A DNA stretch of 64,000 nt from Streptomyces profundus (GTDB lineage: Bacteria > Actinomycetota > Actinomycetes > Streptomycetales > Streptomycetaceae), in assembly GCF_020740535.1 (NCBI RefSeq), contig NZ_CP082362.1, forward strand, positions 2,294,001-2,358,000. Reading direction: 5' to 3'. Shown one piece after another: positions 25,486 to 45,992 of the stretch (its first letter is position 1; each line of letters opens with the position of its first letter). The notes beneath the pieces are model-generated. The model did no database searches, was not told where the DNA came from, and worked only from the letters and a program-made list of their open reading frames with translations. Both the position numbers and the translations under genes were made by a program.

Positions 25486-25497
25486 CTACGCGCGTAG
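25486..25497. promoter_or_regulatory. CTACGCGCGTAG palindrome in the PNP promoter
   Basis: Perfect 12-bp palindrome, 12 bp upstream of the -10-like TAGGCT (25510-25515) and 24 bp upstream of the GTG start of the purine nucleoside phosphorylase gene. The same 12-mer recurs at 35865-35876 (deoC) and 45981-45992 (add). Placement between -35 and -10 suggests a repressor site. Confidence 0.75.
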
Positions 25498-25521
25498 GGA
25501 CATTGCGGTTAGGCTCATCTT

Positions 25522-26322
25522 GTGAACGCATCTGACATGGCCCGCTCGGGCGACGCCGCAGCCGCTCGCCTACGCGAGTTGACCGGTGTGAACAGCCATG
25601 ACGTCGCACTGGTCATGGGGTCCGGCTGGGCCCCCGCCACCGAGCGTCTCGGGACACCGACCCGGGAGCTGGACGTCACCGAACTTCCCGGTTTCCCGCC
25701 GCCGGCCGCCGAGGGGCACGCGGGCAAGATCCGCTCCTACCAGGTGGGCGACAAACGCGCGTTGGTCTTCGTCGGCCGCACCCACTTCTACGAGGGGCTC
25801 GGCGTCGGCGCGGTCACCCATGGCGTGCGCACGGCGGTCGCCGCCGGGTGCAAGACGGTGGTGCTCACCAACAGCTGCGGCGGTCTACGCGAGGGGATGC
25901 AGGTCGGCCAGCCGATACTGATCAGCGACCACATCAATCTGACCGCGACCTCACCGATCGTGGGCGCGAACTTCGTTGATCTGACCGATCTTTACTCGCC
26001 ACGCTTGCGAGCCCTCTGTCAGGAGATCGACCCCAGCCTCGAAGAGGGCGTCTATGTGCAGTTCCCTGGGCCGCACTACGAGACGCCGGCCGAGATCCGG
26101 ATGGTGCGCGCCATCGGCGGCGACCTGGTCGGCATGTCCACGGTGCTGGAGGCCATCGCGGCCCGCGAGGCGGGCGCCGAGGTGCTCGGCATCTCCCTGG
26201 TCACCAACCTCGCGGCGGGGATCACCGGGGCCCCGCTGAACCACGAGGAGGTCCTCAGGGCCGGCCAGGACTCGGCCGCCCGGATGGGCGACCTCCTCGC
26301 CCAGGTGCTGATCAAGTCCTGA
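25522..26322 (+). CDS. Purine-nucleoside phosphorylase
   Basis: 266 residues of the trimeric PNP family: LVMGSGWAP (phosphate loop), [84 protein letters not shown] (purine-site Glu and Met/Ser) and VTNLAAGI. It splits purine (deoxy)nucleosides with phosphate to base and (deoxy)ribose 1-phosphate. GTG start at 25522 with TAGGCT 6 bp upstream, so probably leaderless. The phosphohexomutase gene follows 64 bp later, and the promoter has the shared nucleoside-gene palindrome. Confidence 0.93.
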
Positions 26323-26386
26323 CGCGTCCCTCGGCGGGAAGCGCACAAGAGGCAACGCGGACGATCCGAGCGGCGGGAGTGGGAAC

Positions 26387-28069
26387 GTGGCGGGCGACAC
26401 AGGCGGCGACAGGGACGAGCTGATCGCGCGGGCCAGGCGCTGGCTCGCCGAGGATCCGGACCCGGACACCCGCGCCGAGCTGGCCGCGCTGCTGGACGCG
26501 GACGACCCCTCGGCGCTCGCCGAACGGTTCGCCGGCACGCTCCAGTTCGGCACCGCCGGGCTGCGCGGCGAGATGGGCGCGGGCCCGACGCGGATGAACC
26601 GCGCCGTGGTGATCCGCGCCGCCGCCGGGCTCGCCGCCTATCTCAGGGGCCGCTCCCCCGGTCTGGTCGTCGTCGGCTACGACGCGCGGCACAACAGCGA
26701 ACGCTTCGCCCGGGACAGCGCCGCCGTGTTCACCGGCGCCGGGCTGCGTGCCGTGCTGCTGCCCAGGCCGCTGCCCACCCCCGTGCTGGCCTTCGCCATC
26801 AGGGAGTTGGGCGCGGTGGCCGGCGTCGCCGTGACGGCGAGCCACAACCCGCCCCGGGACAACGGCTACAAGGTGTACCTCGGCGACGGCAGCCAGATCG
26901 TGCCGCCCGCCGACGCGGAGATCGCCGCCCAGATCGCCGCCGTCGGCGCGCTGGCCGAGGTGCCGAGGCCGGCGGACGGCTGGGAGGTGCTGGACGAGGG
27001 AATCGTCGCCGCCTATCTCGACCGCACCGGCGCCGCCCTCACCGAGGGCGCACCGCGCACGCTGGGCACGGTGTACACGCCGCTGCACGGTGTGGGCCAG
27101 TCGGTGCTCACCGAGGCGTTCACCAGGAACGGTTTCGCCGCCCCCGTCGAGGTGCCCCAACAGTCGGCGCCCGACCCGGACTTCCCCACCGTCGCCTTCC
27201 CCAACCCGGAGGAGCCGGGCGCCATGGATCTGGCGCTCGACCTGGCCCGCGCCACCCCCGGCACGGACCTGGTGCTGGCCAACGACCCGGACGCGGACCG
27301 CTGCGCCGTCGGCGTCCGGGACGCGGCGGCCGACGGCGGCTGGCGGATGCTGCGCGGCGACGAGGTGGGCGCGCTGCTGGCCAGCCATCTGGTGCGGCGG
27401 GGCCGCCGAGGCACGTTCGCCACCTCGATCGTCTCGTCGTCGCTGGTCGGTCGCATCGCGGCGGACGCCGGGCTGCCCTACGCGGAGACGCTGACCGGCT
27501 TCAAGTGGCTCGCCCGGGTGCCCGAGTTGGGCTACGCCTTCGAGGAGGCGCTCGGCTACTGCGTGGACCCGGCCGGCGTGCGCGACAAGGACGGCATCAC
27601 GGCCGCCCTGCTGATCGCCGAGCTGGCCGCCGAACTCCGCGCCGAGGGCCGGGCGTTGACGGATCTGCTGGCCGATCTCGCGGTGCGGCACGGGCTGCAC
27701 GCCACGGACCAGCTCTCCGTCCGGGTGGCCGACCTCTCGCTGATCGCCGACGCGCTGGCCCGGCTGCGGGCCACCCCGCCCACCGCGCTGGCCGGGCTCG
27801 CGGTGGCCACGGCCGAGGACCTCGCCGAGGGCAGCGCCGAGCTGCCGCCGACGGACGGGCTGCGTTACCACCTGACCGGCGAGGGGGAGGTGGCGGCGGC
27901 CCGGGTGATCGTCCGCCCCTCCGGCACCGAGCCCAAGATCAAGTGCTATCTGGAGGTCGTGGTCCCGACGGCCGACCGAGCCGCCCTGCCCACCGCCCAC
28001 GCCATCGCGTCCCGCACCCTGGACGCCCTGAAGAAGGACCTGGCGGCTCAGGCCGGCCTCCCGGCCTGA
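26387..28069 (+). CDS. Phospho-sugar mutase (phosphoglucomutase/phosphomannomutase family)
   Basis: 560 residues of the alpha-D-phosphohexomutase family. Seen: LQFGTAGLRGEMGAGP (start domain), VTASHNPPRDNGYKVYLGDG (catalytic phosphoserine loop TASHNP), VLANDPDADRCAVG (Mg-binding DPDADR), a domain 3 region with LTGFKWLARVPE, and IVRPSGTEPKIKCYLE (phosphate-binding loop). It lies in one operon with PNP, so a phosphopentomutase-like job, turning (deoxy)ribose 1-phosphate into the 5-phosphate for DeoC, is plausible. GTG start at 26387. The sequence alone does not settle hexose versus pentose use. Confidence 0.9.
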   Translation: MAGDTGGDRDELIARARRWLAEDPDPDTRAELAALLDADDPSALAERFAGTLQFGTAGLRGEMGAGPTRMNRAVVIRAAAGLAAYLRGRSPGLVVVGYDARHNSERFARDSAAVFTGAGLRAVLLPRPLPTPVLAFAIRELGAVAGVAVTASHNPPRDNGYKVYLGDGSQIVPPADAEIAAQIAAVGALAEVPRPADGWEVLDEGIVAAYLDRTGAALTEGAPRTLGTVYTPLHGVGQSVLTEAFTRNGFAAPVEVPQQSAPDPDFPTVAFPNPEEPGAMDLALDLARATPGTDLVLANDPDADRCAVGVRDAAADGGWRMLRGDEVGALLASHLVRRGRRGTFATSIVSSSLVGRIAADAGLPYAETLTGFKWLARVPELGYAFEEALGYCVDPAGVRDKDGITAALLIAELAAELRAEGRALTDLLADLAVRHGLHATDQLSVRVADLSLIADALARLRATPPTALAGLAVATAEDLAEGSAELPPTDGLRYHLTGEGEVAAARVIVRPSGTEPKIKCYLEVVVPTADRAALPTAHAIASRTLDALKKDLAAQAGLPA

Positions 28070-28136
28070 GCGGGCCAGAACGGCGCGCGGCACACGCCGA
28101 GCCGCCCCCGCCGCCCCCCGCCCCAGGCCGTCGTTC

Positions 28137-28451
28137 TCAGGCCGGCAGGGAGAAGCCCTCGGGTGGGGAGCCTTCGGCGAAGAGCATGCGGACGTGGGTC
28201 GCGTCCTCGCGCAGCTCCCTGGCGTGCCGGTATTCGGGGGATTCGTACCACCCGCGGATCCGGTCCAGGTCGGGGAACTCGATGACCAGCAGGCGGGCGA
28301 AGTCCCAGGCGCCCTCGACCGGTTCGGGCGTGGGGCCGGCGACCAGGTAACGGCCCCCGTGAGCGAGGACGGACGGCTGGGCCACGGCGGCGTAGGCGAG
28401 CGCGGCCTCCTCGTCGAGGACATCGACTCCGACGATGACATAGGCGGGCAT
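28137..28451 (-). CDS. DUF1330 domain-containing protein
   Basis: 104 residues with the ferredoxin-like DUF1330 pattern: YVIVGVDVLDEEAALAYAAVAQPSVLAHGGRYLVAGP, LLVIEFPDLDRIRGWYESPEY, ARELREDAT. Function is unknown; members are small dimeric cytoplasmic proteins. ATG start at 28451. It is divergent from a TetR-type regulator with an inverted repeat between them, so it is the likely regulated target. Confidence 0.85.
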   Translation of the reverse strand: MPAYVIVGVDVLDEEAALAYAAVAQPSVLAHGGRYLVAGPTPEPVEGAWDFARLLVIEFPDLDRIRGWYESPEYRHARELREDATHVRMLFAEGSPPEGFSLPA

Positions 28452-28473
28452 GAGTCAGCGCTCCCTTTGGACA

Positions 28474-28496
28474 CGGCGTGTACTAATGACACGCCG
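28474..28496. promoter_or_regulatory. Candidate TetR operator
   Basis: Inverted repeat CGGCGTGT-N7-ACACGCCG between the divergent DUF1330 and TetR genes. The 8-bp arms are perfect, and the spacer includes the TACTAAT promoter-like sequence. Confidence 0.65.
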
Positions 28497-28527
28497 AAGA
28501 ATAACGCACCCGGGTAACCTGCCCCAT

Positions 28528-29244
28528 GTGAGCAGGGACGAGAGCGAGCCCGTGGTGCCGAGCCGCCGGGAGCGGCTACGCGCGGAGACCAGCCGGGAGA
28601 TCAAGGCCATCGCGCTGCGGCAGTTGGCCGACGGGGGGCCAGGGGCGATCTCGTTGCGCGGCATCGCCCGCGAGATGCGGATGACGCCACGCGCGATCTA
28701 CAGCTACTTCCCCACCCGGGACGATCTGATCACCGCGCTGATCAGCGGCATCGCCGACTCGCTCGCCGAGGCGCTGACGGGCGCCGGCCGCGCCGTGCCG
28801 GCGAGCGACCCCGCGGGCAGGCTGATGGCCTGGGGCGGGGCCCTGCGGGAGTGGGCGTTGGCGCATCCGGAGAGCTTCCGACTCTTCTACGGGCATCCCG
28901 TCCCCGGCTACCAGCCGCCCGAGGACGGCCCTGTGGAGATGACGGCCCGCCGGGTCTGCCGCGATCTGACCGGCCTGGTGGCCGCCGCCTGGCCCAAGGC
29001 GCGACACCTTCAGCCCGAGGACACCGACTGGTCCGATCTGCACCCGGACTACGTCGCCAAGATCCGGGCCGACCTCCCGGAGGTGCCCCCCGCCGCGGCG
29101 GCGCTCGCGCTGCGCGTCTGGGGGCGGATGCACGGGCTGGTGGCCCTGGAGATCGACGGTCATATCCACCCCGTCGCGGCCAACCCGGCGGCGCTGCACC
29201 GCGCCGAGATGCTTGACCTGGTCAGGTCGTTGGGCCTTACCTAG
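28528..29244 (+). CDS. TetR/AcrR family transcriptional regulator (WHG-type C-terminal domain)
   Basis: 238 residues from GTG 28528; TAACCT 7 bp upstream suggests a leaderless transcript. HTH: TSREIKAIALRQLADGGPGAISLRGIAREMRMTPRAIYSYFPTRDDL. The ligand domain has REWALAHPESFRLFYGHPVPGY and ALRVWGRMHGLVALEIDGH, the WG/HG motif of the TetR_C WHG subgroup. Likely a local repressor of itself and the divergent DUF1330 gene. Confidence 0.88.
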   Translation: MSRDESEPVVPSRRERLRAETSREIKAIALRQLADGGPGAISLRGIAREMRMTPRAIYSYFPTRDDLITALISGIADSLAEALTGAGRAVPASDPAGRLMAWGGALREWALAHPESFRLFYGHPVPGYQPPEDGPVEMTARRVCRDLTGLVAAAWPKARHLQPEDTDWSDLHPDYVAKIRADLPEVPPAAAALALRVWGRMHGLVALEIDGHIHPVAANPAALHRAEMLDLVRSLGLT

Positions 29245-29276
29245 AGGCGCTGTCCCGGGTGCCCTCCGGGACGGAC

Positions 29277-29315
29277 GCCGAGTCCCCGCCCGGTGCGAAC
29301 GGGCGGGGACTCGGC
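29277..29315. terminator. Strong bidirectional hairpin terminator
   Basis: Perfect 16-bp stem (GCCGAGTCCCCGCCCG and its complement) with a 7-nt loop, between the convergent TetR and S1 protease genes. Confidence 0.88.
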
Positions 29316-29385
29316 CAACCCGGTCAGGGTGCCGGGTCAGTGGCCGTGCGGGTCAACGGCCGTGCGGGTCAAGGCGCCTGCCGGA

Positions 29386-30306
29386 TCAGGGCAGCGTCAC
29401 GCCGGAGACGGTCGCCGCCTCCGTGACGCGCTGGTAGAAGGTCGTGCCGCCGACGGAGCAGTTGCCGCTGCCGCCGGAGGTCAGACCGTAGCCGACGCTG
29501 CCGCCCCACAGCGGGCCGCCGCTGTCGCCGGGCTCGGCGCAGACGTTGGTCCTGATCATGTCGTACACGACCTCGCCGCCGCCGTAGTCCACGGTGTAGC
29601 CGAGCCCCGTGACGCTGCCGCAGTGCACGCCGGTGGTGCTGCCGCTACGGCAGACCGACGTACCGACCACGGGGTCGGCGAACGAGGTGATGGTGCCGCC
29701 GCCGAGCACCGTGCCGGGCACGGAGGCCGGCTGCGGGTCGTACTGCACCAGGCCGAAGTCGTCACCGGGGAAGTACGAGCTGACGGTGAAGCCGATCTGG
29801 CTGACCCCGTCGCTCCACAGCGGGTACGGCGGCGTGGGGCCGTAGGGGTCATCGGTACAGTGGCCGGCCGTCAGGAAGTAGAACGTGCTGCCCGAGCGGA
29901 CGTTGAAGCCGAGGGAGCACCGCCAACCGAGGTCGGCGTAGATGGCGTCACCGCCCTGGAGGTACTGCTCGAACACGCCGGGGGTGTGCTCGATGTCGAG
30001 CGCGCCGGACAGTGCCCCCGCACTCTCCTCGATCGCCGCGACCTCCGCCGGGGTGACGGACTCGTCGACGAGGACGTGCACCGTGCCCGACGCCTCGTCC
30101 ACGGCCCAGGCGGTGCCGCCCACGTCGGCGGTGTCGACGGCCTGGGCCACGGTGGCGAGTTGGGTCGCGCTGAACGTCTGGACGGAGTCGGCCTGGGCTG
30201 CCCCCGGCACCGCGAGTGCGGAGACGGCGATCAGGCCGGTTGCTACGGCAAGTGCCCTGAGCCCACGGGCCATTCGGCCACGGGGGGTGGTGCGCTTCGA
30301 ACTCAC
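29386..30306 (-). CDS. Secreted S1 family serine protease (alpha-lytic/streptogrisin-like)
   Basis: 306 residues. Signal peptide: twin-Arg-like basic start, hydrophobic core [20 protein letters not shown], cleavage near AAQA. A pro-region of about 80 residues ([42 protein letters not shown]) precedes the protease. Catalytic triad: His in FLTAGHCTD, Asp in DDFGLVQY, Ser in [12 protein letters not shown]. Disulfide Cys pairs fit streptogrisins. It would be exported and self-activated by propeptide removal. GTG start at 30306 behind TTTGGAGGCAGCAA. GSGNC near the S1 pocket suggests chymotrypsin-like specificity, which is an inference. Confidence 0.93.
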
Positions 30307-30943
30307 TTGCTGCCTCCAAAGGGATTCATGGATCCGGTGGATGAGCTGACCGTGAGGTGCCTGTAGCGTGCGGGACATACGCGTAAAAGTCATGCCCACG
30401 ACAATCGCTGCACAGAATCTTCCCATCGCGACGCGCGGTGACAAGAACGGGAACTGGCCACTTGGCCCGGGTTCGCGAGCGGCGTCGGAAGGCGTCGGCT
30501 GAGCGGCGTCGGCGCCGCCGCTCTGGGGCTCGTCCGCCTCGTCGAACCGGCCGCCGGTCCGCCCCCGAGGCGGCGAGCCGACGTCGCGGGGCAGGCGAGA
30601 ACGGCCTGGCCGGCCCGCGCGTCGCCCCCTTCGTCCCCGCCTCGTCCCCGCCTCGTCCGCGCCTCGTCCGCGCCGGTACGACCGCCCGGGGGCGGGGGTC
30701 CGCCTCCTGGCCACGGGGGCCGAACCCCCTTGGGGACGTAGGGGCGTGGCCGACCTCCGTCAACGGCATGTCCCCGACCGGCGGAAGACGGGAACCGCGC
30801 TGCTGACCCCGGGTGCGGGAGGCGCGCCCGCCGGCCCCCTCGGTGGCCTACGGCCCCTCCTGGCGTCGGGTGGCGCGATCGCTCCCCCCTGAAGCGCCGC
30901 CCGGCGGGCGGCCGTTGTCAGACCCTCGTCCTAGGCTGCCGTC
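30307..30943. other. Non-coding stretch upstream of the S1 protease
   Basis: 637 bp without a credible gene. The part at about 30340-30440 is less GC-rich and probably holds the protease promoter; TTGTCG on the minus strand near 30400 is a -35 candidate. Further on, 30635-30680 holds tandem copies of an 11-mer close to CCTCGTCCCCG. The long frames on both strands are Arg-rich low-stop shadows. Confidence 0.6.
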
Positions 30944-31318
30944 ATGAGTGTTTCCCTCTACTACCGCGCCACCAGGGCCACTCCGCCCACCCCGGCGGAG
31001 GCGGCCGAGGTCGAGCGGGTGCTGGCCGCGCGCGAGGTGTCCTTCCCCCATGCCGACGAGGAGTCCCTCTTCCTCTACGACAGCCGGCGGCGCGCCCAGG
31101 AGGAGATACTCGCCGGAGCCACCAAGCTGCCGAGCGATCCCCACCGGCAACCACAGGTGATCGCCCATGTCCTCGCCTCCCTCACCCAACTGCGCCGCGC
31201 CCTCCCCGACTCCGGCTGGCATGTGCACATGGACGACCTCGACATCCCCTGGGAAGAGCCCCACGGCTACACCCTCCCGGGCATAGCCGACCCGCCACAG
31301 CGCCGTCTCGATCCCTAG
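30944..31318 (+). CDS. Hypothetical protein
   Basis: 124 residues, ATG at 30944. It has a protein-like composition (VSLYYRATRATPPTPAEAAEVERVLA, DEESLFLYDSRR, VIAHVLASLTQLRRALPDSGWHVHMDDLDIPWE) with two helices and a conserved-looking WHVHMDD segment, but I do not recognise the family. It is cytoplasmic. Its stop overlaps the stop of the convergent GDPD gene by 4 bp. Confidence 0.65.
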   Translation: MSVSLYYRATRATPPTPAEAAEVERVLAAREVSFPHADEESLFLYDSRRRAQEEILAGATKLPSDPHRQPQVIAHVLASLTQLRRALPDSGWHVHMDDLDIPWEEPHGYTLPGIADPPQRRLDP

Positions 31319-32598
31319 GCCACGGCGGGGACGATGTAGGAGAAGACGTCCTCGATCACATGGCGCTCGTTGTAGTACTGGATGGTGTCGCCGAGCGTGT
31401 TGTTGAGGATCGCCGTGTCCAGGCCCGCGTGGTAGTCGGTCGGGCCGTTGGTGCCCCGGCCGATATGCACGCGCAACAGGCTGCCCGGCTGGATCCGGTA
31501 GCCGTCCTCGATGCGCACCTGGACGTTGCCGGCCTGGTCGCGCAGGTAGTGACCGCCGACATCGATGGCGCGGTCCGTGGTGTTGCGCAGCGCGACATAC
31601 TCGGAGGCGTCCTCCCGCATGTCGTCGCCCGAGGGGTTGGGGTAGACGTGGTCGACCACCACGCCGGCGGCCCTGGGCAGCGGGTCACGGCCGGCGCGGA
31701 CGCGCAGCGCGGTGTCGGTGAGGTTGGTGACCAGGTAGTCATAACCCTGGTCGAGCGCCATCTCGATCTGCTCGGGGCTGTCCACGGGGTCGCTGTAGAC
31801 GAGCAGCCCGGCCTCCCGAGCCCGCTGGATGTCCCCGGCGTGGGTCTGCCTGGGGTCGGCGAAGACACCGACGGTCCAGTCGGCCAGCTCGGCGAGCTCC
31901 GCGTCCTCCAACATCGTCCCACCGGTGAGATAGGCGATCGGCACCTCGGGCAGCGCTTCGCTGAACTCGCGCAGCGCCTCCTGGTCCCGAGAGTGCACCA
32001 TGATCCGGAAGGCGCCGTCGCGCGTCCTGGAACCGTCGTCCAGGCCGTACTCGTCGAGCAGCTCGGCCAGCCTGGTCGCCACCCCCGGGCTCTTCGCCGG
32101 CGCCTTCAACTCGAAGGTGAACGCCGCGCGGCCCCGGTTGAGCCGAAGGATCTCCTCGACGGTCGGCACCCGCTCGCCCGCGTACCGCGCGCGATGCCAG
32201 GAGCCGGCGTCCAACTGCCTGATCTCCTCCAGGGTGAACGCGCCCACGTCCTCGCCCGCCCGGTCGGGAAAGACCTCCGCGACATCGGTGGTCCGCGCCA
32301 GCGTGTCGTCGTGCAGCAGTATCAGCTCCCCGTCGGCCGTCAACTGGACGTCGCCCTCCAGGACTTCGGCGCCCTGCGCCAGCGCCTCGCGGTAGGCGGC
32401 GGCGGTCTCCTCGGGCGCGTGCCGGGGCGCGCCCCGGTGCGAGACCACCGGCACATCCCGGTGGTGCCCGCCACCGCCCCGGGCCTCGGGGGCCGCTTCG
32501 ACGGTGGCGGGCGCCGGGCCGGCCTCGGTGCCGGCCAACGCGGTCAGGGCGACGGCCAGCGCCGCCGTCAGGGGGATCACCAGGGGACGTACGCGCAT
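31315..32598 (-). CDS. Secreted glycerophosphodiester phosphodiesterase with C-terminal lamin-tail domain
   Basis: 427 residues. Signal peptide: RPLVIPLTAALAVALTALAG. GDPD domain (about 50-310): VVSHRGAPRHAPEETAAAYREAL (catalytic His, Arg, Glu), EGDVQLTADGELILLHDDTLARTT (second catalytic His), FTFELKAP, and a terminal YDYLVTNLTD. After about residue 315 comes a lamin-tail-like beta domain (VVVDHVYPNPSGDDM, SEYVALRNTTDRAIDVGGHYLRD, LLRVHIGRGTNG), a fusion seen in secreted actinobacterial enzymes. It would release glycerol 3-phosphate from lipid-derived diesters outside the cell. ATG at 32598. Confidence 0.9.
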   Translation of the reverse strand: MRVRPLVIPLTAALAVALTALAGTEAGPAPATVEAAPEARGGGGHHRDVPVVSHRGAPRHAPEETAAAYREALAQGAEVLEGDVQLTADGELILLHDDTLARTTDVAEVFPDRAGEDVGAFTLEEIRQLDAGSWHRARYAGERVPTVEEILRLNRGRAAFTFELKAPAKSPGVATRLAELLDEYGLDDGSRTRDGAFRIMVHSRDQEALREFSEALPEVPIAYLTGGTMLEDAELAELADWTVGVFADPRQTHAGDIQRAREAGLLVYSDPVDSPEQIEMALDQGYDYLVTNLTDTALRVRAGRDPLPRAAGVVVDHVYPNPSGDDMREDASEYVALRNTTDRAIDVGGHYLRDQAGNVQVRIEDGYRIQPGSLLRVHIGRGTNGPTDYHAGLDTAILNNTLGDTIQYYNERHVIEDVFSYIVPAVA

Positions 32599-32808
32599 GG
32601 GTAACGCACCTCGATCGTCTCGGTGTTCGGTTCCTTGGGTTCCTGTGGCTTCGCAGACGCTACGAAACATCCGAGTACGGCCGGCGAACGTGACACAAAG
32701 CGCGATCGTCCAGTCGGCGGGCCGATCACCACGGGGTCGACGGGAACAAAGGGAACTATGGGGTAACGGTTGTCCGAAGCGGAGCGATGGTCCGGCAGAA
32801 TCGTGTTT

Positions 32809-35864: not shown

Positions 35865-35876
35865 CTACGCGCGTAG
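35865..35876. promoter_or_regulatory. CTACGCGCGTAG palindrome in the deoC promoter
   Basis: Perfect 12-bp palindrome ending 1 bp before TATGCT (35878-35883), the -10 hexamer of the deoC promoter. It is identical to the sites in front of the PNP and adenosine deaminase genes. Confidence 0.75.
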
Positions 35877-35889
35877 ATATGCTCATCTG

Positions 35890-36843
35890 GTGACCATGCC
35901 ATCCACCGCAACGGCGCTGGCGGACGTGACCGCGTCCGATGCCGCGCTGCGCCGCTTTCTGCACGGACTTCCCGGAGTCGACGCGGTGGGCCTTGAGGCC
36001 CGTGCCGCCGCTCTGGGGACACGTTCGATCAAGACAACGGCCAAGGCCCACGCCATCGATCTGGCCATCTCCATGATCGATCTGACCACGCTTGAGGGTG
36101 CCGACACACCCGGCAAGGTGCGCGCGCTCTGCGCCAAGGGCACCGCGCCCGATCCCACCGACCCGAGCACCCCACGGGTCGCGGCGATCTGCGTCTACTC
36201 GGATCTGGTCGCCGTCGCCAAGGACGCCCTGGCCGGCAGCGGTATCGCGGTGGCCTCGGTGGCCACCGCCTTCCCCGCCGGCCGGGCGGCCCGTTCGGTC
36301 AAGCTGGCCGACACCGCCGAGGCGGTGGCCGCCGGCGCGGACGAGGTCGACATGGTGATCGACCGGGGCGCGTTCCTGTCCGGCCGCTATCTCTCCGTCT
36401 TCGAGGAGATCGTCGCGGTCCGCGAGGCGTGTGGCGACGCGCATCTCAAAGTGATCCTGGAGAACGGCGAGTTGGTCACCTATGACAACATCCGCCGGGC
36501 CTCGTGGCTGGCGATGCTGGCCGGGGCCGACTTCATCAAGACCTCGACGGGCAAGGTCGGGGTGAACGCGACGCCGGCCAACACCCTGTTGATGCTCCAG
36601 GCCGTGCGGGACTTCCGGGCCGCCACGGGTCGGCAGATCGGGGTGAAGCCGGCGGGCGGCATCCGGACCACCAAGGACGCCGTGAAGTTCCTGGTGTTGG
36701 TGAACGAGACCGCCGGAGCGGACTGGTTGGATCCGGCCTGGTTCCGGTTCGGCGCCTCCAGCCTGCTGAACGATTTGCTGATGCAGCGTCAGAAGCTCAG
36801 TACCGGACGGTACTCGGGCCCCGACTACGTGACGGTGGACTGA
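35890..36843 (+). CDS. deoC: Deoxyribose-phosphate aldolase
   Basis: 317 residues from GTG 35890 (ATG at 35896 is close). Class I aldolase motifs: ICVYSDLVAVAKDAL, VASVATAFPAG, EVDMVIDRGAFLSG, LKVILENGEL, FIKTSTGKVGVNAT (Schiff-base Lys 217) and IGVKPAGGIRTTKDA (second Lys). It splits 2-deoxyribose 5-phosphate into acetaldehyde and glyceraldehyde 3-phosphate. TATGCT 6 bp upstream suggests a leaderless mRNA. The aldehyde dehydrogenase genes follow 5 bp later and could oxidise the acetaldehyde. Confidence 0.95.
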   Translation: MTMPSTATALADVTASDAALRRFLHGLPGVDAVGLEARAAALGTRSIKTTAKAHAIDLAISMIDLTTLEGADTPGKVRALCAKGTAPDPTDPSTPRVAAICVYSDLVAVAKDALAGSGIAVASVATAFPAGRAARSVKLADTAEAVAAGADEVDMVIDRGAFLSGRYLSVFEEIVAVREACGDAHLKVILENGELVTYDNIRRASWLAMLAGADFIKTSTGKVGVNATPANTLLMLQAVRDFRAATGRQIGVKPAGGIRTTKDAVKFLVLVNETAGADWLDPAWFRFGASSLLNDLLMQRQKLSTGRYSGPDYVTVD

Positions 36844-38282: not shown

Positions 38283-39153
38283 GTCGCAGCCGGGTCTCAA
38301 GCTGCCGGTTCTCAAGACCTACAAGCTGTTTGTCGGGGGCGCGTTCCCCCGGTCCGAGAGCGGGCGGGTGTACGAGGTGACCGACGCCAAGGGCCAGTGG
38401 TTGGCCAACGCCCCGCTGGCCTCGCGGAAGGACGCCAGGGACGCGGTGGTCGCCGCGCGCAAGGCGTTCCCGCGCTGGTCGGGGGCGACGGCCTACAACC
38501 GGGGCCAGGTGCTCTACCGGATCGCGGAGATGGTGCAGGGCCGCAGGGAGCAGTTCCGCGCCGAGGTGGCGCTGGGCGAGGGCCTGTCGAAGTCGAAGGC
38601 CGCCACGGCCGTGGACGCGGCGATCGACCGGCTGGTCTGGTACGCCGGCTGGTCGGACAAGGTGGCCCAGATCGCGGGCGGCGCCAACCCGGTGGCCGGC
38701 CCCTTCTTCAACCTGTCGACGCCCGAACCGACGGGCGTGGTCGCGGTGTTGGCGCCGCAGGACTCCTCGCTGCTCGGCCTGGTCTCGGTGCTGGCACCGG
38801 TGCTGACCACGGGCAGCGTGGCCGTCGTCGTCGCCTCGGAGCGCGCGCCGCTGCCGGCGCTGTCGTTCGCCGAGGCGCTGGCCACCTCGGATGTGCCCGG
38901 CGGGGTGGTCAATGTGCTCAGTGGGCGGACCGCCGAGCTGGGCCGCCCCCTGGCCGCGCACCAGGATGTCAACGCCATCGATCTGACGGGCGCGGACGCG
39001 GAGTTGGCGACGGAGCTGGAGGTGCTGGCGGCGGAGAACCTCAAGCGGGTGCGCCGCCCGGACCCGTCGGAGGACTTCGCGGCCGATCCCGGCACCGGCC
39101 GGCTGTTGGGCTTCCTGGAGACCAAGACGGTCTGGCACCCCACCGGAGTCTGA
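38275..39153 (+). CDS. C-terminally short aldehyde dehydrogenase-like protein lacking the catalytic domain
   Basis: 292 residues. It aligns with the N-terminal part of ALDHs: LFVGGAFPRSESGRVYEV, AVVAARKAFPRWSGATAYNRGQVLYRIAEMV, then PEPTGVVAVLAPQDSSLLGLVSVLAPVLTTGSVAVVV in place of the cofactor loop, and PGGVVNVLSG. It stops before any ELGGK/Cys region, so the catalytic Glu and Cys are absent. Its ATG overlaps the end of the full-length ALDH, and as I recall S. coelicolor has the same pair. It looks like a conserved non-catalytic partner subunit and not a recent break. Confidence 0.8.
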
Positions 39154-39159
39154 GCGGGT

Positions 39160-39271
39160 CGAACAACGCGCACGCCGAACGGCACGCGCGTCGAACAACG
39201 CGCACGCCGAACAACGCGCACGCCGAACAGCACGCGCGCCGAACGGCACGCGCATCGAACAACGCGCACGG
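39160..39271. repeat. Seven-copy 16-bp tandem repeat
   Basis: Seven consecutive 16-bp units just past the short ALDH gene. Four are close to CGAACAACGCGCACGC and three to CGAACGGCACGCGCGT. There is no spacer between units, so this is a minisatellite and not a CRISPR array. Confidence 0.9.
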
Positions 39272-39479
39272 AGGAAACGCGGCGGGGGCGCGGGGGCTGG
39301 CCAGACCCCCCGGCCGACCGAACCCCGCGCCCCCGCCTCCCCCGTGCTCCCCCCGGTTCCCCCCGAGGGATCCCCCCGTGGACCCCTCCAGGGGCGCCCC
39401 CGCACCCCCCTATCCCCGTTCCCCCCGTTTTCCCCCGGTCACCCCCCGTTCCCCCGTTTCCCCCGTTCCCCCCCAGCCT
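39272..39479. other. C-rich non-coding tract downstream of sigQ
   Basis: Dense runs of four to seven C on the plus strand with CCCCGTT spacing, over 39330-39480. On the minus strand, which is the sigQ transcript strand, these are G-runs that could form quadruplexes at the sigQ mRNA 3' end. No gene seen. Confidence 0.6.
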
Positions 39480-40205
39480 TCAGGCGACCAACTCGCCGAA
39501 GGACTCCTCCTGGTCCTGGCCGAGGCTGAGCGCCCGGTCCTCGCGCAGCCGACGCAGGGTGCGCCAGATGCTGCTCTTGACGGTGCCGACGCTGATGTTC
39601 AACGTGTCGGCGATCTCCGGGTCGGTCTGCCCCTCGTAGTACCGCAGCACCAGCATGGTGCGCTGCTGCTCCGGGAGCCGGGCCAGCGCCTGCCAGAGGA
39701 CCGTGCGCAGCTCGGTGCCGCGCATGGTGTCCTGCTCGCCGGGCGACTCGGGCAGTTCCTCGGTCGGGTACTCGTTGAGCTTCCGGCGCCGCCAGGCGCT
39801 GATGTGCAGGTTTGTCATGGTCCGTCGCAGATATCCCCCGACGGCCGCCTTGTCGCTGATCCGGTCCCAGGCACGGTAAGTGGACAGCAGCGCACTCTGA
39901 AGCAGGTCCTCTGCCTCGTGCCGGTCGCCCGTCAGGTGGTAGGCGGTGGCGTACAGGGAGGCCCGGCGCTCTCGCACATAGGCGGTGAACTCCGCCTCCG
40001 TGCCCCCTTCGCGCCGCGCCTTCCCCGCACATCCCCCCGTAGCGCCCACCGCGGTGAGGTGCGAAGGACGCTGGTGCCCGATGCCGCGGCGACCCCCAAG
40101 CCGATACGCGGCACCGGACTTCTCCCCGTGCCGGACGGGAACCAACGAGGCGGTCGCGTGCGTGTCATTCACCATCGTGTCGATGGTGTCCTGCTTGACG
40201 CTCAT
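39480..40205 (-). CDS. sigQ: RNA polymerase sigma factor SigQ (ECF type, SigE-like family)
   Basis: 241 residues from the chosen ATG 40205. Region 2: EFTAYVRERRASLYATAYHLTGDRHEAEDLLQSALLSTYRAWDRI. Region 4: ALARLPEQQRTMLVLRYYEGQTDPEIADTLNISVGTVKSSIWRTLRRLRE. It is divergent from afsQ1, as sigQ is in S. coelicolor. ATG 40217, 40268 and 40283 are in-frame alternatives, but codons upstream of 40217 (AAA, CAA, GGT, ATT) are unlike the gene. That stretch seems to be promoter (TATTTC at 40242-40247), and GGGGGAG precedes 40205. It is expected to be an AfsQ1-activated sigma factor affecting antibiotic production. Confidence 0.88.
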   Translation of the reverse strand: MSVKQDTIDTMVNDTHATASLVPVRHGEKSGAAYRLGGRRGIGHQRPSHLTAVGATGGCAGKARREGGTEAEFTAYVRERRASLYATAYHLTGDRHEAEDLLQSALLSTYRAWDRISDKAAVGGYLRRTMTNLHISAWRRRKLNEYPTEELPESPGEQDTMRGTELRTVLWQALARLPEQQRTMLVLRYYEGQTDPEIADTLNISVGTVKSSIWRTLRRLREDRALSLGQDQEESFGELVA

Positions 40206-40285
40206 CAGCTCCCCCATCGTGAAGGTCGTCCCTGTCCGTTGCGAAATACCTTGCCGGGCCAGTTTCATGACGGGGTCCCCCAACT

Positions 40286-40301
40286 GTCACAGCGGTGTCA
40301 C
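40286..40301. promoter_or_regulatory. AfsQ1-type binding site in the sigQ-afsQ1 intergenic region
   Basis: GTCAC-AGCGGT-GTCAC is an exact match to the GTnAC-N6-GTnAC direct repeat described for AfsQ1 in S. coelicolor. If the sigQ -10 is TATTTC (40242-40247), the site is centred near -57, a suitable activator position. Confidence 0.8.
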
Positions 40302-40426
40302 AGGGGTAGCGGTGGTTCCCTTGTGTTATCGGGGAGTTCGGCGGAACCCGCCGTCCCCGGGCTGTGGGGGAAGCCTCAGCGCCGGACGGTCGAACTCCGC
40401 CCACTCCATGGGCCACAATGAGCCAC

Positions 40427-41101
40427 GTGGCTTTCCTGTTGCTGATCGAGGACGACGAGGCGGTACGCACGGCCCTGGAAATGAGCCTGACCCGCCAGGG
40501 GCATCGTGTGGTGACCGCGCCGACGGGTGAGGACGGTCTGCGTTCCCTGCGGGAACAGCGTCCCGACCTGATCGTTTTGGACGTCATGCTGCCCGGAATC
40601 GACGGTTTCGAGGTGTGCCGACGCATCCGGCGCACCGATCAGCTGCCGATCATCCTGCTCACCGCGCGCAGTGACGACATCGACGTGGTGGTCGGCCTGG
40701 AGTCCGGCGCCGACGACTACGTGGTGAAGCCGGTGCAGGGCCGGGTGCTCGACGCGCGCATCCGTGCCGTGATGCGCCGGGGCGAGCGCGAGTCCAACGA
40801 CTCGGTGTCCTTCGGCTCGTTGGTGATCGACCGCTCGGCGATGACCGTCACCAGGGACGGCGTCGATCTGCAACTCACGCCGACCGAGCTGCGGTTGCTG
40901 CTGGAGCTGAGCCGCCGCCCCGGGCAGGCGCTCTCCCGGCAGCAACTGCTGCGGCTGGTCTGGGAGCACGACTACCTGGGCGACTCCCGGCTGGTCGACG
41001 CCTGCGTCCAGCGGCTCCGCGCCAAGGTCGAGGACGTGCCGTCCTCCCCCAAGCTGATCCGCACCGTGCGGGGCGTGGGCTACCGACTGGACGCGCCCTG
41101 A
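40427..41101 (+). CDS. afsQ1: Response regulator AfsQ1 (OmpR family)
   Basis: 224 residues from GTG 40427. Receiver domain: LLIEDDEAVRTALEM, LIVLDVMLPGIDGFEV with the phosphoacceptor at Asp52, ILLTAR, DYVVKPV. C-terminal OmpR winged helix: LQLTPTELRLLLELSRRPGQALSRQQLL, RLVDACVQRLRAKVE, IRTVRGVGYRL. With this start the phospho-Asp is residue 52, the number used for S. coelicolor AfsQ1, which supports GTG 40427 over ATG 40418. CACAAT lies 7 bp upstream, suggesting a leaderless start. The system links nitrogen excess signals to antibiotic and nitrogen genes. Confidence 0.93.
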   Translation: MAFLLLIEDDEAVRTALEMSLTRQGHRVVTAPTGEDGLRSLREQRPDLIVLDVMLPGIDGFEVCRRIRRTDQLPIILLTARSDDIDVVVGLESGADDYVVKPVQGRVLDARIRAVMRRGERESNDSVSFGSLVIDRSAMTVTRDGVDLQLTPTELRLLLELSRRPGQALSRQQLLRLVWEHDYLGDSRLVDACVQRLRAKVEDVPSSPKLIRTVRGVGYRLDAP

Positions 41102-41126
41102 TGACGGGGACGGCGGAGATCTGCTG

Positions 41127-42773
41127 ATGCGCGAGGCGGCTCCCCCACAGCCCGAGGAACGCGCCGACGAACGCCCCCCGGGGCGCGCCGAGGGGCGCGT
41201 GCGCGGCTGGCTGCGCACCCTGTTGCGCCTCACCAGCCTGCGGCTGCGGCTGGTCACGGTCTTCGCGCTGGTGGCGCTCGTCGCGGCCGTCTCCGTCTCC
41301 GGGATCGCCTACTGGCTCAACCGGGACGCCGTGCTCACCCGCGCCCAGGACTCGGCGCTCGGGGACTTCAGCCAGTCCCTCGGCGACCGCGCCGGCGCGC
41401 TCTCCGACGATCCCAGCTGCGACGAGCTGCGGAACATGGCGGCCGAGGTGGCCAACCACACCTTCAACTACCAGGTGGTGCTGGAGGACGACAGGGCGAC
41501 GGACGACCGGGGCGGCGACGACAGCACGGAGTGCCTCGCCGAGTCCGACCCCACGGTGTTCCGGCTCGCCATGGTGCCGACATCGCTGCGGGAGGCCGTC
41601 CGCGAGCGCAGGGACGGCGCGTCGGACGAGGACGCCTACCACCTGTACTGGCAGCGGATCAACATCGACGGCGACCCCTACCTCGTCGGCGGCGCCCAGG
41701 TGATCGGCGGCGGCCCGATCGGCTATGTGCTGGCGTCGCTGGCCGCCGAGCGCGACGACCTCAAGTCGCTGGCGATGTCCCTCGGCGTGGCCACGGGACT
41801 CGCGGTGGTCGGCTCCGTGCTGCTCGCCCAGGGCGCCGCGACCATGGTGCTCCGCCCCGTGCAGCGGTTGAGCAACGCGGCCCGCCGGCTGGGCGAGGGC
41901 AAGCTGGACACCCGCCTCGAAGTGCGCGGAACGGACGAGCTCGCCGAGCTGAGCCGCACGTTCAACGGCGCCGCCGCCTCGCTTGAGGCCCAGGTCGACG
42001 ATCTGAGCGAACGGGAGAACGCCAGCCGCAGGTTCGTCGCCGACATGTCGCACGAGCTGCGCACGCCGATGACCGCGATCACCGCGATGACGGAGCTGCT
42101 GGAGGACGAGGTCGAGACGCTCGACCCACGGATCGCGCCCGCGGTGCAGCTGGTGGTCAGCGAGACCAGGCGCCTCAACGACCTGGTGGAGAACCTGATG
42201 GAGGTGACCCGCTTCGACGCCGGCACCGCCAAGATGGTGCTCGACGACGTCAACATAGCGGACCAGGTCACCTCCTGTATCGACGCCCGCGCCTGGCTGG
42301 ACGCGGTGCATCTGGACGCGGACCGGGGCATCGTCGCCCGGCTCGACCCCCGCCGCCTGGACGTCATCCTGGCGAACCTGATCGGCAACGCCCTCAAGCA
42401 CGGCGGCTCCCCGGTGCGGGTCACGGTGCGCGAGGGGATGACGGAGCGCGGCCGGCAGGTCACGGTCGAGGTGGCCGACGAGGGGCCCGGCATCCCCGAG
42501 GAGGTGCTGCCGCACGTCTTCGACCGCTTCTACAAGGCCAGCGCGTCCCGCCCCCGATCGGACGGCAGCGGTCTCGGCCTCTCCATCGCGCTGGAGAACG
42601 CACATCTGCACGGCGGGGACATCACCGTCCACAACGACCCGGCCGGCGGCGCCGTGTTCACCCTGCTGCTGCCCCGCGACTCGGGCCCGCCCCAGGACGG
42701 CGAGGACGACTTCGCCGACGGCGTCGGCAACACCCCTGCGACGCCGGGCACTTCGGAGGAGGGCAGGGAGTGA
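41127..42773 (+). CDS. afsQ2: Sensor histidine kinase AfsQ2
   Basis: 548 residues. First membrane segment LRLVTVFALVALVAAVSVSGIAYWL, an extracytoplasmic sensor region of about 130 residues with two Cys (DPSCDELRNM, STECLAESD), a second membrane segment LGVATGLAVVGSVLLAQGAA, then HAMP (LRPVQRLSNAARRLGEGKLDTRL). Kinase core: FVADMSHELRTPMTAI with His309, LIGNALKHGG (N box), VADEGPGIPEEVLPHVFDRFYKA and SGLGLSIALENAHLHGG. ATG at 41127 behind GGCGGAG, 25 bp after afsQ1. It phosphorylates AfsQ1. Confidence 0.93.
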   Translation: MREAAPPQPEERADERPPGRAEGRVRGWLRTLLRLTSLRLRLVTVFALVALVAAVSVSGIAYWLNRDAVLTRAQDSALGDFSQSLGDRAGALSDDPSCDELRNMAAEVANHTFNYQVVLEDDRATDDRGGDDSTECLAESDPTVFRLAMVPTSLREAVRERRDGASDEDAYHLYWQRINIDGDPYLVGGAQVIGGGPIGYVLASLAAERDDLKSLAMSLGVATGLAVVGSVLLAQGAATMVLRPVQRLSNAARRLGEGKLDTRLEVRGTDELAELSRTFNGAAASLEAQVDDLSERENASRRFVADMSHELRTPMTAITAMTELLEDEVETLDPRIAPAVQLVVSETRRLNDLVENLMEVTRFDAGTAKMVLDDVNIADQVTSCIDARAWLDAVHLDADRGIVARLDPRRLDVILANLIGNALKHGGSPVRVTVREGMTERGRQVTVEVADEGPGIPEEVLPHVFDRFYKASASRPRSDGSGLGLSIALENAHLHGGDITVHNDPAGGAVFTLLLPRDSGPPQDGEDDFADGVGNTPATPGTSEEGRE

Positions 42774-43342
42774 CACGGATACGAGCCACGCGGCTGGCGC
42801 TGGCCGGTCTGCTGGCCGCGACGACCGCCGTCGGCTGCGGCATCAGGCCCACGGACGTGCCGGTCGACGCCGGCCCCGCGCCCACCCGCGCCTCCTGCGA
42901 CGCGCCGGCGGGCGAGGCGGACCACGCCGAGATCTACCTGGTCTGCGCCCAGCGGCTGACGTCCGTCACCCGCTATCTGCCCAGCACGATGACCGGCGGC
43001 CTCAACCGGACGGAGGTGGCCGGCGCGCTGCTCCGCGAGATGCAGAACGAGCCGGCGCGCGCGGAGCGGACGGCCGGGTTCAGCAGCGCCGTCCCCGACG
43101 ATCTTGAGATAGCCAGCCCCGCCGCCGAGGACCCCGAGGGCGTGGTCCGCCTCAGCGAACGCCCCAAGGAGCTGCCCGCGCTGGCGCTCGACCAGATCAT
43201 CTGCACCTTCGCGAAGAGCGAGCTGGGCAACGGCCAGACGGTGACCCTCGGCGGCCCGCCGGGACCGCACTCCGAGAAGCCGCAGACATACTCCTGCGCC
43301 GCCGCCAAGCGGAGCCAGGAGTCGGCCCACGAGATCGGCTGA
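42770..43342 (+). CDS. Lipoprotein of the afsQ operon (AfsQ3-like)
   Basis: 190 residues. Lipoprotein signal: RATRLALAGLLAATTAVGCG, with the lipobox Cys at residue 23. The mature part has four further Cys (ASCDAPAG, LVCAQRL, IICTFAK, YSCAAAK) and a GerMN/LpqB-like feel (LPSTMTGGLNRTEVAGALLREMQ). GTG start overlaps the end of afsQ2 (GTGA), so synthesis is coupled. It probably sits on the outer face of the membrane beside AfsQ2, where a modulating role is likely but unproven. Confidence 0.82.
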   Translation: MTRIRATRLALAGLLAATTAVGCGIRPTDVPVDAGPAPTRASCDAPAGEADHAEIYLVCAQRLTSVTRYLPSTMTGGLNRTEVAGALLREMQNEPARAERTAGFSSAVPDDLEIASPAAEDPEGVVRLSERPKELPALALDQIICTFAKSELGNGQTVTLGGPPGPHSEKPQTYSCAAAKRSQESAHEIG

Positions 43343-43410
43343 CGCGGCGGACCGGCCCGGAGTCCCGGGTGGGGCCCAGCTCACAGTGCGGCGGGGGAAC
43401 CGCCCCTGAC

Positions 43411-44172
43411 GTGCTGGGCGTCCTGTTCTGCGTGCGGCAACATCCTGCGGGCTCAGCCGAGCCGACGCCACCCGCCGAGAGGGGCCCCACCGAGCCCCCC
43501 AGTTCGGCGCGGGACCGACGCGGAAGCGTTCCCCACGTCTCCCCCGCCGTGCGGGTGGCGGCGTCGCTGTCGCTGCTGGCCTATCTGGCGCTGGCCACCT
43601 GGCTGGCGCTGCGCCCGCTGACCATGATGTGGGTCTCCCCGGCCAACCTGGAGCCGCTCGCGACCATCAGGGTCGACGTGGAACGTGGCCCCGTCGAGGC
43701 GGCCAGGACGCTCGGCGCCGGGCTGGTCCGGCTGGCGCCGCTCGGCGCGCTGCTGCCGCTGCTCGGTGCCCACCTGGGCGGCGGGCGGCTGGGTTCGCTC
43801 TCCCGCACGGCCTTTGTGGGCGCGATGGTCTCGCTGGGGCTCGAATGCGGTCAGACGGTGGCGCCCAGCCGGGTGTTCGACATCGACACGGTGCTGCTGA
43901 ACACCCTGGGCATCGCCCTGGTCCACCAGCTCTGCTACGGCCCGTTGCGGCGCTTCGCCACCACGAAGCCGCCGCAGGACCCGCCGCCCGCCTCCCCGCC
44001 GGAGCCGCCGGCGCGCCCGCCGGCGCACGCCTCCACGCCCGAGCCCCGGAGCGCGCCACGCTGCCCGCGTGTCCCGCCAACGCCCCAGGCGCCGCCGACG
44101 CCCCAGGCTCCGCCGACGCCGCCCGCACCGCCGGCGCCGCCGGTCCAGGCGCGGATGGCCAGCTGGTACTGA
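43411..44172 (+). CDS. VanZ family membrane protein
   Basis: 253 residues if started at GTG 43411; GTG 43369 is also in frame and the choice is uncertain. Membrane segments: AASLSLLAYLALATWLALRPL, GLVRLAPLGALLPLLGAHL, AFVGAMVSLGLECGQTV and DTVLLNTLGIALVHQL. EC-Q-x-AP-R and DIDTVLLNTLG are the VanZ signature. The C-terminus is a Pro-rich tail with PPTPQA and PPA repeats. VanZ proteins are linked to low-level glycopeptide resistance elsewhere; the role here is unknown. Confidence 0.82.
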   Translation: MLGVLFCVRQHPAGSAEPTPPAERGPTEPPSSARDRRGSVPHVSPAVRVAASLSLLAYLALATWLALRPLTMMWVSPANLEPLATIRVDVERGPVEAARTLGAGLVRLAPLGALLPLLGAHLGGGRLGSLSRTAFVGAMVSLGLECGQTVAPSRVFDIDTVLLNTLGIALVHQLCYGPLRRFATTKPPQDPPPASPPEPPARPPAHASTPEPRSAPRCPRVPPTPQAPPTPQAPPTPPAPPAPPVQARMASWY

Positions 44173-44205
44173 CCGCCGGCCGCTCGTCGACCCGGGCAGC
44201 GCGAA

Positions 44206-44241
44206 GGGCCGTACTCCACGGGGGGCTTGGGAGTACGGCCC
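44206..44241. terminator. Bidirectional hairpin terminator
   Basis: Perfect 12-bp stem (GGGCCGTACTCC and its complement) with a 12-nt G-rich loop, between the convergent VanZ and secreted-protein genes. Confidence 0.85.
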
Positions 44242-44264
44242 TGGTGCGGCGGCGGTGCGGTGGG

Positions 44265-44660
44265 TCAGCCCAGGGCGCCCAGCGCACCGGTCACGGCGCC
44301 GGCGGCGCCGTTGACGCCGGAGAGCCCGGCGGCGCCGGTCACCGCGCTCAGCGCTCCGGGGGCCAGCCCGCCCAGCAGCTCGCCGGGGGCCGGGTTGCTG
44401 GTGGTGTGGCTGAGGGTCTCGGTGGCGCTGCCCAGGGTGCCGGTCACGGCGTCGCTGGTGAGCAGTTCGGTGCCGCCCTTGACGACATCGCCCTCCACCT
44501 GGCTGACGGCGTCCTCGACGGGAACGGCGCTGGCGACCTGGCCGGTGGCGTGCGCCAGGCCCTCGTTGACGCTCATGGCGGAGGCGGAACCGGCGGCGGT
44601 GGCGGCGAAGGCGGCACCGAGCGCGGCCACACCGAGGGTCTTGGCAGTTGCGTGCTTCAT
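44265..44660 (-). CDS. Small secreted Ala/Gly-rich protein
   Basis: 131 residues from ATG 44660, with AAGGAAG 8 bp upstream. Signal peptide: KTLGVAALGAAFAATAAGSASA. The mature part (VNEGLAHATGQVASAVPVEDAVSQVEGD, then LGGLAPGALSAVTGAAGLSGVNGAAGAVTGALGALG) is uncharged, Ala/Gly/Val-rich and Cys-free. It is not a chaplin, since the chaplin motif is absent. No function can be assigned. It precedes the add gene on the same strand but a promoter-like gap separates them. Confidence 0.75.
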   Translation of the reverse strand: MKHATAKTLGVAALGAAFAATAAGSASAMSVNEGLAHATGQVASAVPVEDAVSQVEGDVVKGGTELLTSDAVTGTLGSATETLSHTTSNPAPGELLGGLAPGALSAVTGAAGLSGVNGAAGAVTGALGALG

Positions 44661-44824
44661 CAGTAGGACTTCCTTGGGTGTGTGGTGAGCGGCGAGCCCG
44701 AAGGTAGTCAGGTGAAACCCACTGTCGCAATGAATCGAAAAGCGCGCCCCCGCTCGAAACTCACCCACCCGGGCGAGCGCGCGATCCCTCGCCGCCCGCC
44801 CCTCCCCTCATGCAACACCCCAGC

Positions 44825-45964
44825 TCAGAGGGGTGATTCGGGCTTCCCATGGAACAACCATGCGGAGCGCAGTGCCGCATATCCGGGCTTGATGACGTCA
44901 TTGATCATGGCCAGACGTTCATCGAAAGGAATGAACGCGGATTTCATCGCATTGACCGTGAACCACTGGAGGTCGTCCAGCGTATAGCCGAACGCCTCTA
45001 CCAGATGGGTGAATTCACGGCTCAGGCTGGTACCACTCATCAGCCGGTTGTCGGTGTTGACGGTGGCCCGGAAACTGAGCCTGCGGAGCAGACCGATGGG
45101 ATGCTCGGCATACGAACTGGCCGCGCCCGTCTGGAGGTTGGAGGTCGGGCACAGCTCCAGCGGAACGCGCTTGTCCCGGACATACGCCGCCAGCCGTCCC
45201 AGCGAGACCCGGCCGTCCTCCGCCACCTCGATATCGTCGATGATCCGCACCCCGTGCCCGAGGCGGTCCGCGCCACACCACTGGAGCGCCTGCCAGATCG
45301 ACGGCAGCCCGAACGCCTCGCCGGCGTGGATGGTGAAGTGGTTGTTCTCCCGCTTCAGGAACTCGAAGGCGTCCAGATGCCGGGTGGGCGGGAACCCGGC
45401 CTCGGCTCCCGCGATATCGAAGCCCACCACGCCCGACTCCCGGTAGGCGTTGGCGAGTTCGGCGATCTCCAACGAGCGGGCGGCGTGCCGCATGGCGGTC
45501 AACAGCGCGCCGACCCGGATCCGCGCACCGGTGGCGGCGGCGCGGCGCTCGCCCGCTCGGAACCCCTCGTTGACCGCCTCCACCACCTCGGTCAGGGAGA
45601 GTCCGGCCGTCAGATGCTGCTCGGGGGCGTAACGGATCTCGGCGTAGACCACCCCGTCGGCGGCGAGGTCCTCGACACATTCGGCGGCCACCCGGCGCAG
45701 CGCGGCGGCGTCCTGCATCACGGCGGTGGTGTGCGCGAACGTCTCCAGATACCGCTCCAGCGAACCGGAGTTCGCGGCCTCAAGGAACCACTCCCCCAGC
45801 GCCTCCGGGTCCTCCGTCGGCAGCCCGGAGTACCCCTGCGCATGGGCGAGTTCGACGACGGTGGCCGGCCGCAGCCCACCGTCGAGATGGTCGTGGAGCA
45901 GCGCCTTGGGCGCACGCAGGATCTGCTCTTCGGTCGGCGTCGGCGTCGTCTCATGCGATGTCAC
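44825..45964 (-). CDS. add: Adenosine deaminase
   Basis: 379 residues. Zinc and catalytic motifs: [12 protein letters not shown] (HxH), [10 protein letters not shown] (His and catalytic Glu), LGHGVRI (His) and [11 protein letters not shown] (Asp). It also has [13 protein letters not shown] and [11 protein letters not shown]. It turns (deoxy)adenosine into (deoxy)inosine, which the PNP encoded at 25522 can then split. GTG start at 45964, with TACAGT (45971-45976 on the minus strand) 6 bp upstream, so the mRNA is probably leaderless. The nucleoside-gene palindrome is just upstream. Confidence 0.93.
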
Positions 45965-45980
45965 GCCTGCACTGTACTTC

Positions 45981-45992
45981 CTACGCGCGTAG
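45981..45992. promoter_or_regulatory. CTACGCGCGTAG palindrome in the add promoter
   Basis: Perfect 12-bp palindrome 4 bp upstream of the -10-like TACAGT and 16 bp upstream of the GTG of add. Third copy of the sequence found in front of the PNP and deoC genes. Confidence 0.75.

Follow-up and report, generated by a model that had tools for sequence, protein, structure and literature searches.

Three copies of a palindrome at nucleoside-salvage promoters

The window analysed here, a whole stretch of 64,000 nt of Streptomyces profundus DNA (NZ_CP082362.1, positions 2,294,001 to 2,358,000; positions below are those of the window unless another contig is named), contains genes for purine-nucleoside phosphorylase (PNP), deoxyribose-phosphate aldolase (deoC) and adenosine deaminase (add), each of which is preceded by an exact copy of the same 12-bp palindrome, CTACGCGCGTAG. 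The copy at the PNP promoter (25486..25497) is followed, after a gap of 12 nt, by the predicted -10-like hexamer TAGGCT (25510..25515, plus strand), which ends 6 nt before the start of PNP itself (25522..26322, plus strand; TIGR01698 above cut-off). Lying 3′ of PNP on the same strand is a gene for a phosphohexomutase-family mutase (26387..28069) with PGM_PMM domains I-IV; no NCBIfam equivalog scores above its cut-off for this protein, which would have the role of a phosphopentomutase. At deoC (35890..36843, plus strand; TIGR00126 above cut-off) the palindrome (35865..35876) is separated by a single nucleotide from the predicted hexamer TATGCT (35878..35883, plus strand), and this again sits 6 nt before the start of the gene. 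The add gene (44825..45964) is on the minus strand and scores above the cut-offs of both NF006847 and TIGR01430; its palindrome (45981..45992) precedes the predicted hexamer TACAGT (45971..45976, minus strand) with a gap of 4 nt, and 6 nt then remain to the start. All three genes begin with GTG and are apparently leaderless, such that, if transcription starts at the GTG, the palindrome would occupy -36 to -25 at PNP, -25 to -14 at deoC and -28 to -17 at add. A first-pass annotation, made from the sequence alone, had already named these genes and placed a -10-like hexamer within 12 bp of each palindrome; the names pass curated NCBIfam cut-offs, and the spacings are as given above.

The same annotation had claimed three identical sites and none elsewhere in the window, and this is what an exact-match scan returns, where Markov models of the window would predict 0.002-0.003 copies in a window and 0.2-0.4 in a genome. 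The whole genome (one contig of 7,653,710 bases) carries four exact copies, which are tied to nucleoside genes, rather than frequent copies at unrelated ones. Relaxed matching is far less telling. Six places in the window lie within two mismatches, against 4.17 expected, and with a count so near expectation only exact matches are informative there; across the genome, 17 places lie within one mismatch of CTACGCGCGTAG compared with 11 for the reversed palindrome, and weight is therefore placed only on exact or near-exact matches. Thirteen of these genomic places have one mismatch, one being upstream of purS (L009), another upstream of a gene without a nucleoside role (L010), and two (L194 and L195) inside reading frames. 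Gene context was considered for five of the thirteen (L007, L009, L010, L194 and L195), and sequence context only for the remainder (L005, L006, L008 and L011-L015).

Conservation within and beyond the family

With regard to conservation within the genus, CTACGCGCGTAG is present in all 61 genomes assessed (60 drawn genomes and the present one), with 230 copies in total against 39 of the reversed palindrome. The genes behind the sites were read in 15 genomes chosen amongst the same-genus genomes with sites, this genome excluded, and 58 of all 59 exact sites were found at PNP (15), deoC (15), add (15), an ABC ATPase gene (10) or a second add gene (3), with every one of the 15 genomes having a site at each of the first three. 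The sole site without an assigned gene, at position 5001 of L079, is followed by the -10-like sequence TAAGCT and by no clear reading frame. Together with the four copies in this genome, these counts show a palindrome that is rare and concentrated at promoters of related function.

Across the family Streptomycetaceae, the exact palindrome occurs in 60 of 61 genomes and in 16 of 17 genera, the exception being G263. All 21 readable PNP, deoC and add promoters from other genera, drawn from 11 genomes of eight genera, match within two mismatches, ten being identical, ten having one mismatch and one having two; a twelfth genome, G271, has no PNP, deoC or add gene in its stretches. Variants of the operator in these genera include CTACGCGTGTAG, CTACGCGAGTAG and CTACGCGCATAG, plus changes in the final base or two. 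In G304 the sites of PNP, add and deoC are kept though the genes lie at 1.14, 4.20 and 6.79 Mb, respectively, so that the palindrome goes with the gene rather than with its surroundings. When species genomes were scanned for the form of the deoC promoter, with at least 120 matches, a similar picture emerged: deoC is the next gene in 79 of the 80 matches listed (the remaining stretch ends first), and all 80 are titled Streptomyces, Kitasatospora or Streptacidiphilus. The site is thus kept at orthologous promoters across genera, both in the genomes read and in the deoC records.

Beyond the family, a class-wide draw of 197 genomes returned an exact copy in 20 of 20 same-genus genomes and in 8 of the 177 others. 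No regulon homologues stand beside the outside-family sites examined, which come from six of these eight genomes (L085-L090, and L140 and L141 of G124; G141 and G186, with one site each, are not included), and the exact copies outside the family apparently arise by chance. Amongst 26 genomes of other families, no palindrome common to the add and PNP upstream regions was found in 22, and the other four (G071, G162, G204 and G221) share only loose G+C-rich palindromes; the add stretch of G074 ended at a contig end. As far as sampled, the regulon in its present operator form looks like a family trait of the Streptomycetaceae.

That the three copies in the window are there by chance, or as a local repeat, is exceedingly improbable. 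CG-rich words are common in high G+C DNA, and the window count at two mismatches is close to expectation; such an origin is, however, contradicted by the exact counts, by the specificity for particular genes, and by conservation both across genera and at dispersed genes. Rarity of the site, its restriction to nucleoside genes and its retention at orthologous promoters instead support the regulon that the first-pass annotation had proposed. Judged from sequence, CTACGCGCGTAG is very probably the operator of one dimeric repressor that controls nucleoside scavenging in Streptomyces and its family.

Further sites and a link to purine synthesis

The fourth exact copy in this genome, at C1:2749084 (L004), is followed by 4 bases, the hexamer TAGGGT and a GTG-started gene, the product of which contains Metallophos and 5_nucleotid_C domains. 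This is probably a secreted 5′-nucleotidase that would make nucleosides outside the cell, secretion being likely because the N-terminus, by eye, resembles a signal peptide. In relatives, an exact site precedes a nucleoside-type ABC ATPase gene in 10 of the 15 same-genus genomes. The one operon read through (L058) consists of genes for two binding proteins (the one scanned has a Bmp domain), the ATPase and two permease-like proteins, followed by cdd and deoA, with the palindrome immediately 5′ of the ATPase gene.

A connection to purine synthesis is also apparent. A one-mismatch variant, CTACTCGCGTAG, precedes purS in this genome, with a -10 hexamer 14 nt from the palindrome, and, given the gene order purS-purQ-purL at this locus (L009), purS is taken as the head of purSQL. 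When upstream regions were drawn from family genomes without selection for the site, 22 of 30 purS upstreams proved to lie within two mismatches, 16 of them with one mismatch (L233, amongst these 22, lies at a distance and is probably a chance match). The reversed motif was found in none of the 30, and palindromes that had been shuffled gave, at up to one mismatch, a mean of 0.08 of 30 and a maximum of 2. For purN, the equivalent count is 5 of 30. Exact sites outside the cluster also occur at purN in six g89 genomes and in G268, and at purS in G161, all of these genomes having been selected because they bear the site. On these counts, purS appears to be a widespread member of the regulon, and purN a member in certain genera only. 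Through the variant site at purS, the regulon would connect the uptake and catabolism of nucleosides with a single operon of purine synthesis, a link unforeseen in the first-pass annotation, and with purS, the 5′-nucleotidase and the transporter operon of relatives the regulon is wider than was proposed there.

Proposed mode of action

In the mechanism envisaged, a repressor dimer would bind CTACGCGCGTAG within -36 to -14 of leaderless-looking promoters and sterically block RNA polymerase, until released by a compound that nucleoside breakdown consumes or forms. Its targets would be PNP with the mutase gene, deoC and add, and, in most relatives examined, the ABC transporter operon; further targets would be the probable secreted 5′-nucleotidase here, and purS, the first gene of purSQL, by way of a variant operator. 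An operator in the -35/-10 zone is placed for a repressor to obstruct polymerase, and an activator would not usually be expected at such a position. The palindrome could nonetheless be an activator site, as its distance to the -10 hexamer is variable (12, 1 and 4 nt, and 14 nt at purS); this appears improbable, however, as positions -36 to -14 would, with transcription starting at the GTG, fall within the footprint of the polymerase, and the deoC site abuts the -10 hexamer.

Several observations weigh against repression of nucleoside scavenging through this operator. The leaderless appearance of the PNP, deoC and add promoters depends on starts predicted from the sequence. The closest nucleoside-type ABC ATPase gene of this genome (C1:2364360-2365886, L347; 80% identity), some 6 kb to the right of the window, has no upstream site, the best match having five mismatches, and may have lost the palindrome or never had one. 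The first-pass annotation had predicted that a transporter, cdd and deoA would be amongst the members, and this therefore holds for relatives (the ATPase in 10 of 15, and L058) but not for the ATPase gene of the present genome. In 5 of the 15 same-genus genomes, likewise, the ATPase gene has no exact site, although G013 has the variant CTACGCGTGTAG there. In six genomes (L064, L067, L070, L099, L107 and L196) a second add, approximately 64% identical to add, has the exact palindrome in the codons that immediately follow the ATG, where it is either a genuine operator within the gene or an accident of the coding sequence. An exact site also precedes a secreted-looking protein in four genomes of genus g89 (L199, L200, L202 and L205); the one in L202 contains He_PIG and CBM_4_9 domains, without a clear role in nucleoside metabolism, and exact sites without an evident nucleoside link are found at L079, L198 (a HAD hydrolase), L208, L210 and L211. 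Finally, joint repression of catabolism and purS does not fit a simple model of induction by substrate.

Candidate regulators

The best single candidate for the repressor is a DeoR/GlpR-type regulator encoded in the window (22310..23245, minus strand; HTH_DeoR and DeoRC above cut-off). The first-pass annotation had placed this gene at 22310-23272; the gene stands, whilst its start is probably not the ATG at 23272 but the GTG at 23245, where similarity amongst relatives begins. It is possible, if rather doubtful, that this protein is the repressor, with a deoxyribose or ribose phosphate relieving the repression. All 61 family genomes, from 17 genera, encode a close orthologue, which shows 70-84% identity when this genome is set aside; four of the 61 also have a second, distant match (36-41% identity). 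The gene lies next to lpd-ggct-PNP in 11 of 12 family stretches, and the twelfth stretch is cut; by comparison, PNP, lpd or ggct occur in 0 of 17 stretches around DeoR homologues from other families. Amongst solved structures a single relative was found, a repressor of a deoxyribose operon (7l6l, E 1.1e-5), and the regulated steps would suit a sensor of pentose phosphates. Against this candidate, none of 30 deoR upstreams has a site within two mismatches, so that autoregulation offers no pointer. Furthermore, in family f14, homologues whose recognition helix is near-identical lie next to genes of RbsA-like ABC transporters, and sequences of the TGATCGAA/TGATCGG type stand between the two (L177, L178 and L179; partly by eye). 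The E. coli DeoR equivalog, NF007961, scores 70.3 bits against a cut-off of 244, such that the protein belongs to the DeoR superfamily only. Operators known for the DeoR family are generally A/T-rich, which the palindrome is not, and purS is not amongst the targets to be expected of DeoR.

The upstream regions of deoR (window 22310-23272; L110-L166) harbour a conserved block of their own, AACAACTTCNGTTATTCGG...CTGAAAGCAG, with TTACTGT approximately 8 nt before the GTG start. This block is unlike the palindrome and is possibly the site of another regulator.

It appears moderately probable that the regulator is unlinked to the cluster, for instance a LacI-type protein or another sensor of purines or nucleosides, with DeoR a mere neighbour. 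The points raised against DeoR speak for such a regulator, as does the presence of purS in the regulon, which is also seen with purine-sensing repressors elsewhere. CTACGCGCGTAG is a perfect palindrome centred on CG, as is expected of LacI-family operators, although this property is not specific to them, and a site with CG at its centre has been described for ScnR1, a LacI protein conserved in Streptomyces (PMC12292694). Conversely, the ScnR1/GvmR site reported in that study differs, being RTCATWCGYATGAY, and no candidate gene has been identified: LacI-type genes were not noticed at the sites read, where no genome-wide enumeration was made. We tentatively entertain the proposal, with a probability a little short of even, that an undescribed master repressor of the Streptomycetaceae, distinct from DeoR, couples nucleotide and nucleoside scavenging, catabolism and purSQL by way of a near-invariant 12-bp operator in leaderless promoters.

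A TetR-family gene (28528-29244; TetR_N and TetR_C_33) adjoins the mutase gene, and one of the one-mismatch copies of the palindrome (28576, L007) falls inside its frame. It was considered as the regulator and rejected, with no match at E 1e-15 in the 17 stretches searched.

Relation to described systems

As a kind of system this is ordinary, whilst its operator, its set of genes and the regulator seem not to have been described in the literature searched. The enterobacterial DeoR/CytR regulons similarly possess a set of operators common to nucleoside phosphorylase, deoC, deaminase and transporter genes; the operator here is, however, unlike the E. coli DeoR site, and purS is included. The gene set is that of an E. 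coli-type DeoR regulon (PNP and deoC in all 15 genomes, the ABC ATPase in ten of these, and deoA in the L058 operon), but the DeoR-type protein falls below the cut-off of the corresponding equivalog, NF007961. PurR-type regulons of B. subtilis and E. coli likewise place purine-synthesis and salvage or uptake genes under one repressor, whereas here, of the only two pur genes tested, purS is included widely and purN in some genera.

Within Streptomyces, the LacI-family regulators ScnR1 and GvmR share with the present system a palindromic operator with a central CG and a connection to nucleoside chemistry, but theirs is the 14-bp RTCATWCGYATGAY rather than this 12-mer, and their targets, in the parts of that paper examined, are the guvermectin cluster and regulators (PMC12292694). 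XdhR, the repressor of xdhABC, is also a Streptomyces regulator of purine salvage, and the only regulator of salvage genes named for the genus in the literature examined; its targets, as described in the parts examined, are xdh genes and antibiotic regulators (PMC6627660). A regulator of the DeoR family, SCO4920, is named both in PMC3224704, within an inferred network module, and in PMC4848846; the word nucleoside is absent from PMC3224704. Other papers indicate that SCO4914 is deoxyribose-phosphate aldolase (PMC3293853), that SCO4901 is adenosine deaminase (PMC7244524), and that a purine iModulon is mentioned in an S. coelicolor study (PMC11538686). Of two regulon surveys, one on LacI proteins (PMC4052901) lists AdeR, HpxR and UriR for nucleosides and, in the parts examined, no Streptomyces nucleoside regulon, and one on GntR proteins (PMC4494728) holds, in the parts examined, nothing on nucleosides, deoC or TACGCG. 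Occurrences of the 12-mer in the open papers searched are unrelated by title and abstract, and its sub-words gave nothing relevant by title. A description of this operator or regulon was not found in the open-licence papers searched, a scope that does not extend to RegPrecise or supplements.

In Streptomyces, both guanosine-nucleotide signalling and nucleoside antibiotics draw on the turnover of nucleosides and purines. With an operator that hardly varies and a defined set of genes behind it, the regulator is directly findable, and the operator itself is ready for use in expression work.

Between deoC and add, the window also contains a response regulator gene, recognised by eye, and a histidine kinase gene (HisKA/HATPase), together spanning 40418-42773; from gene order, we presume that this pair may be AfsQ1/AfsQ2.

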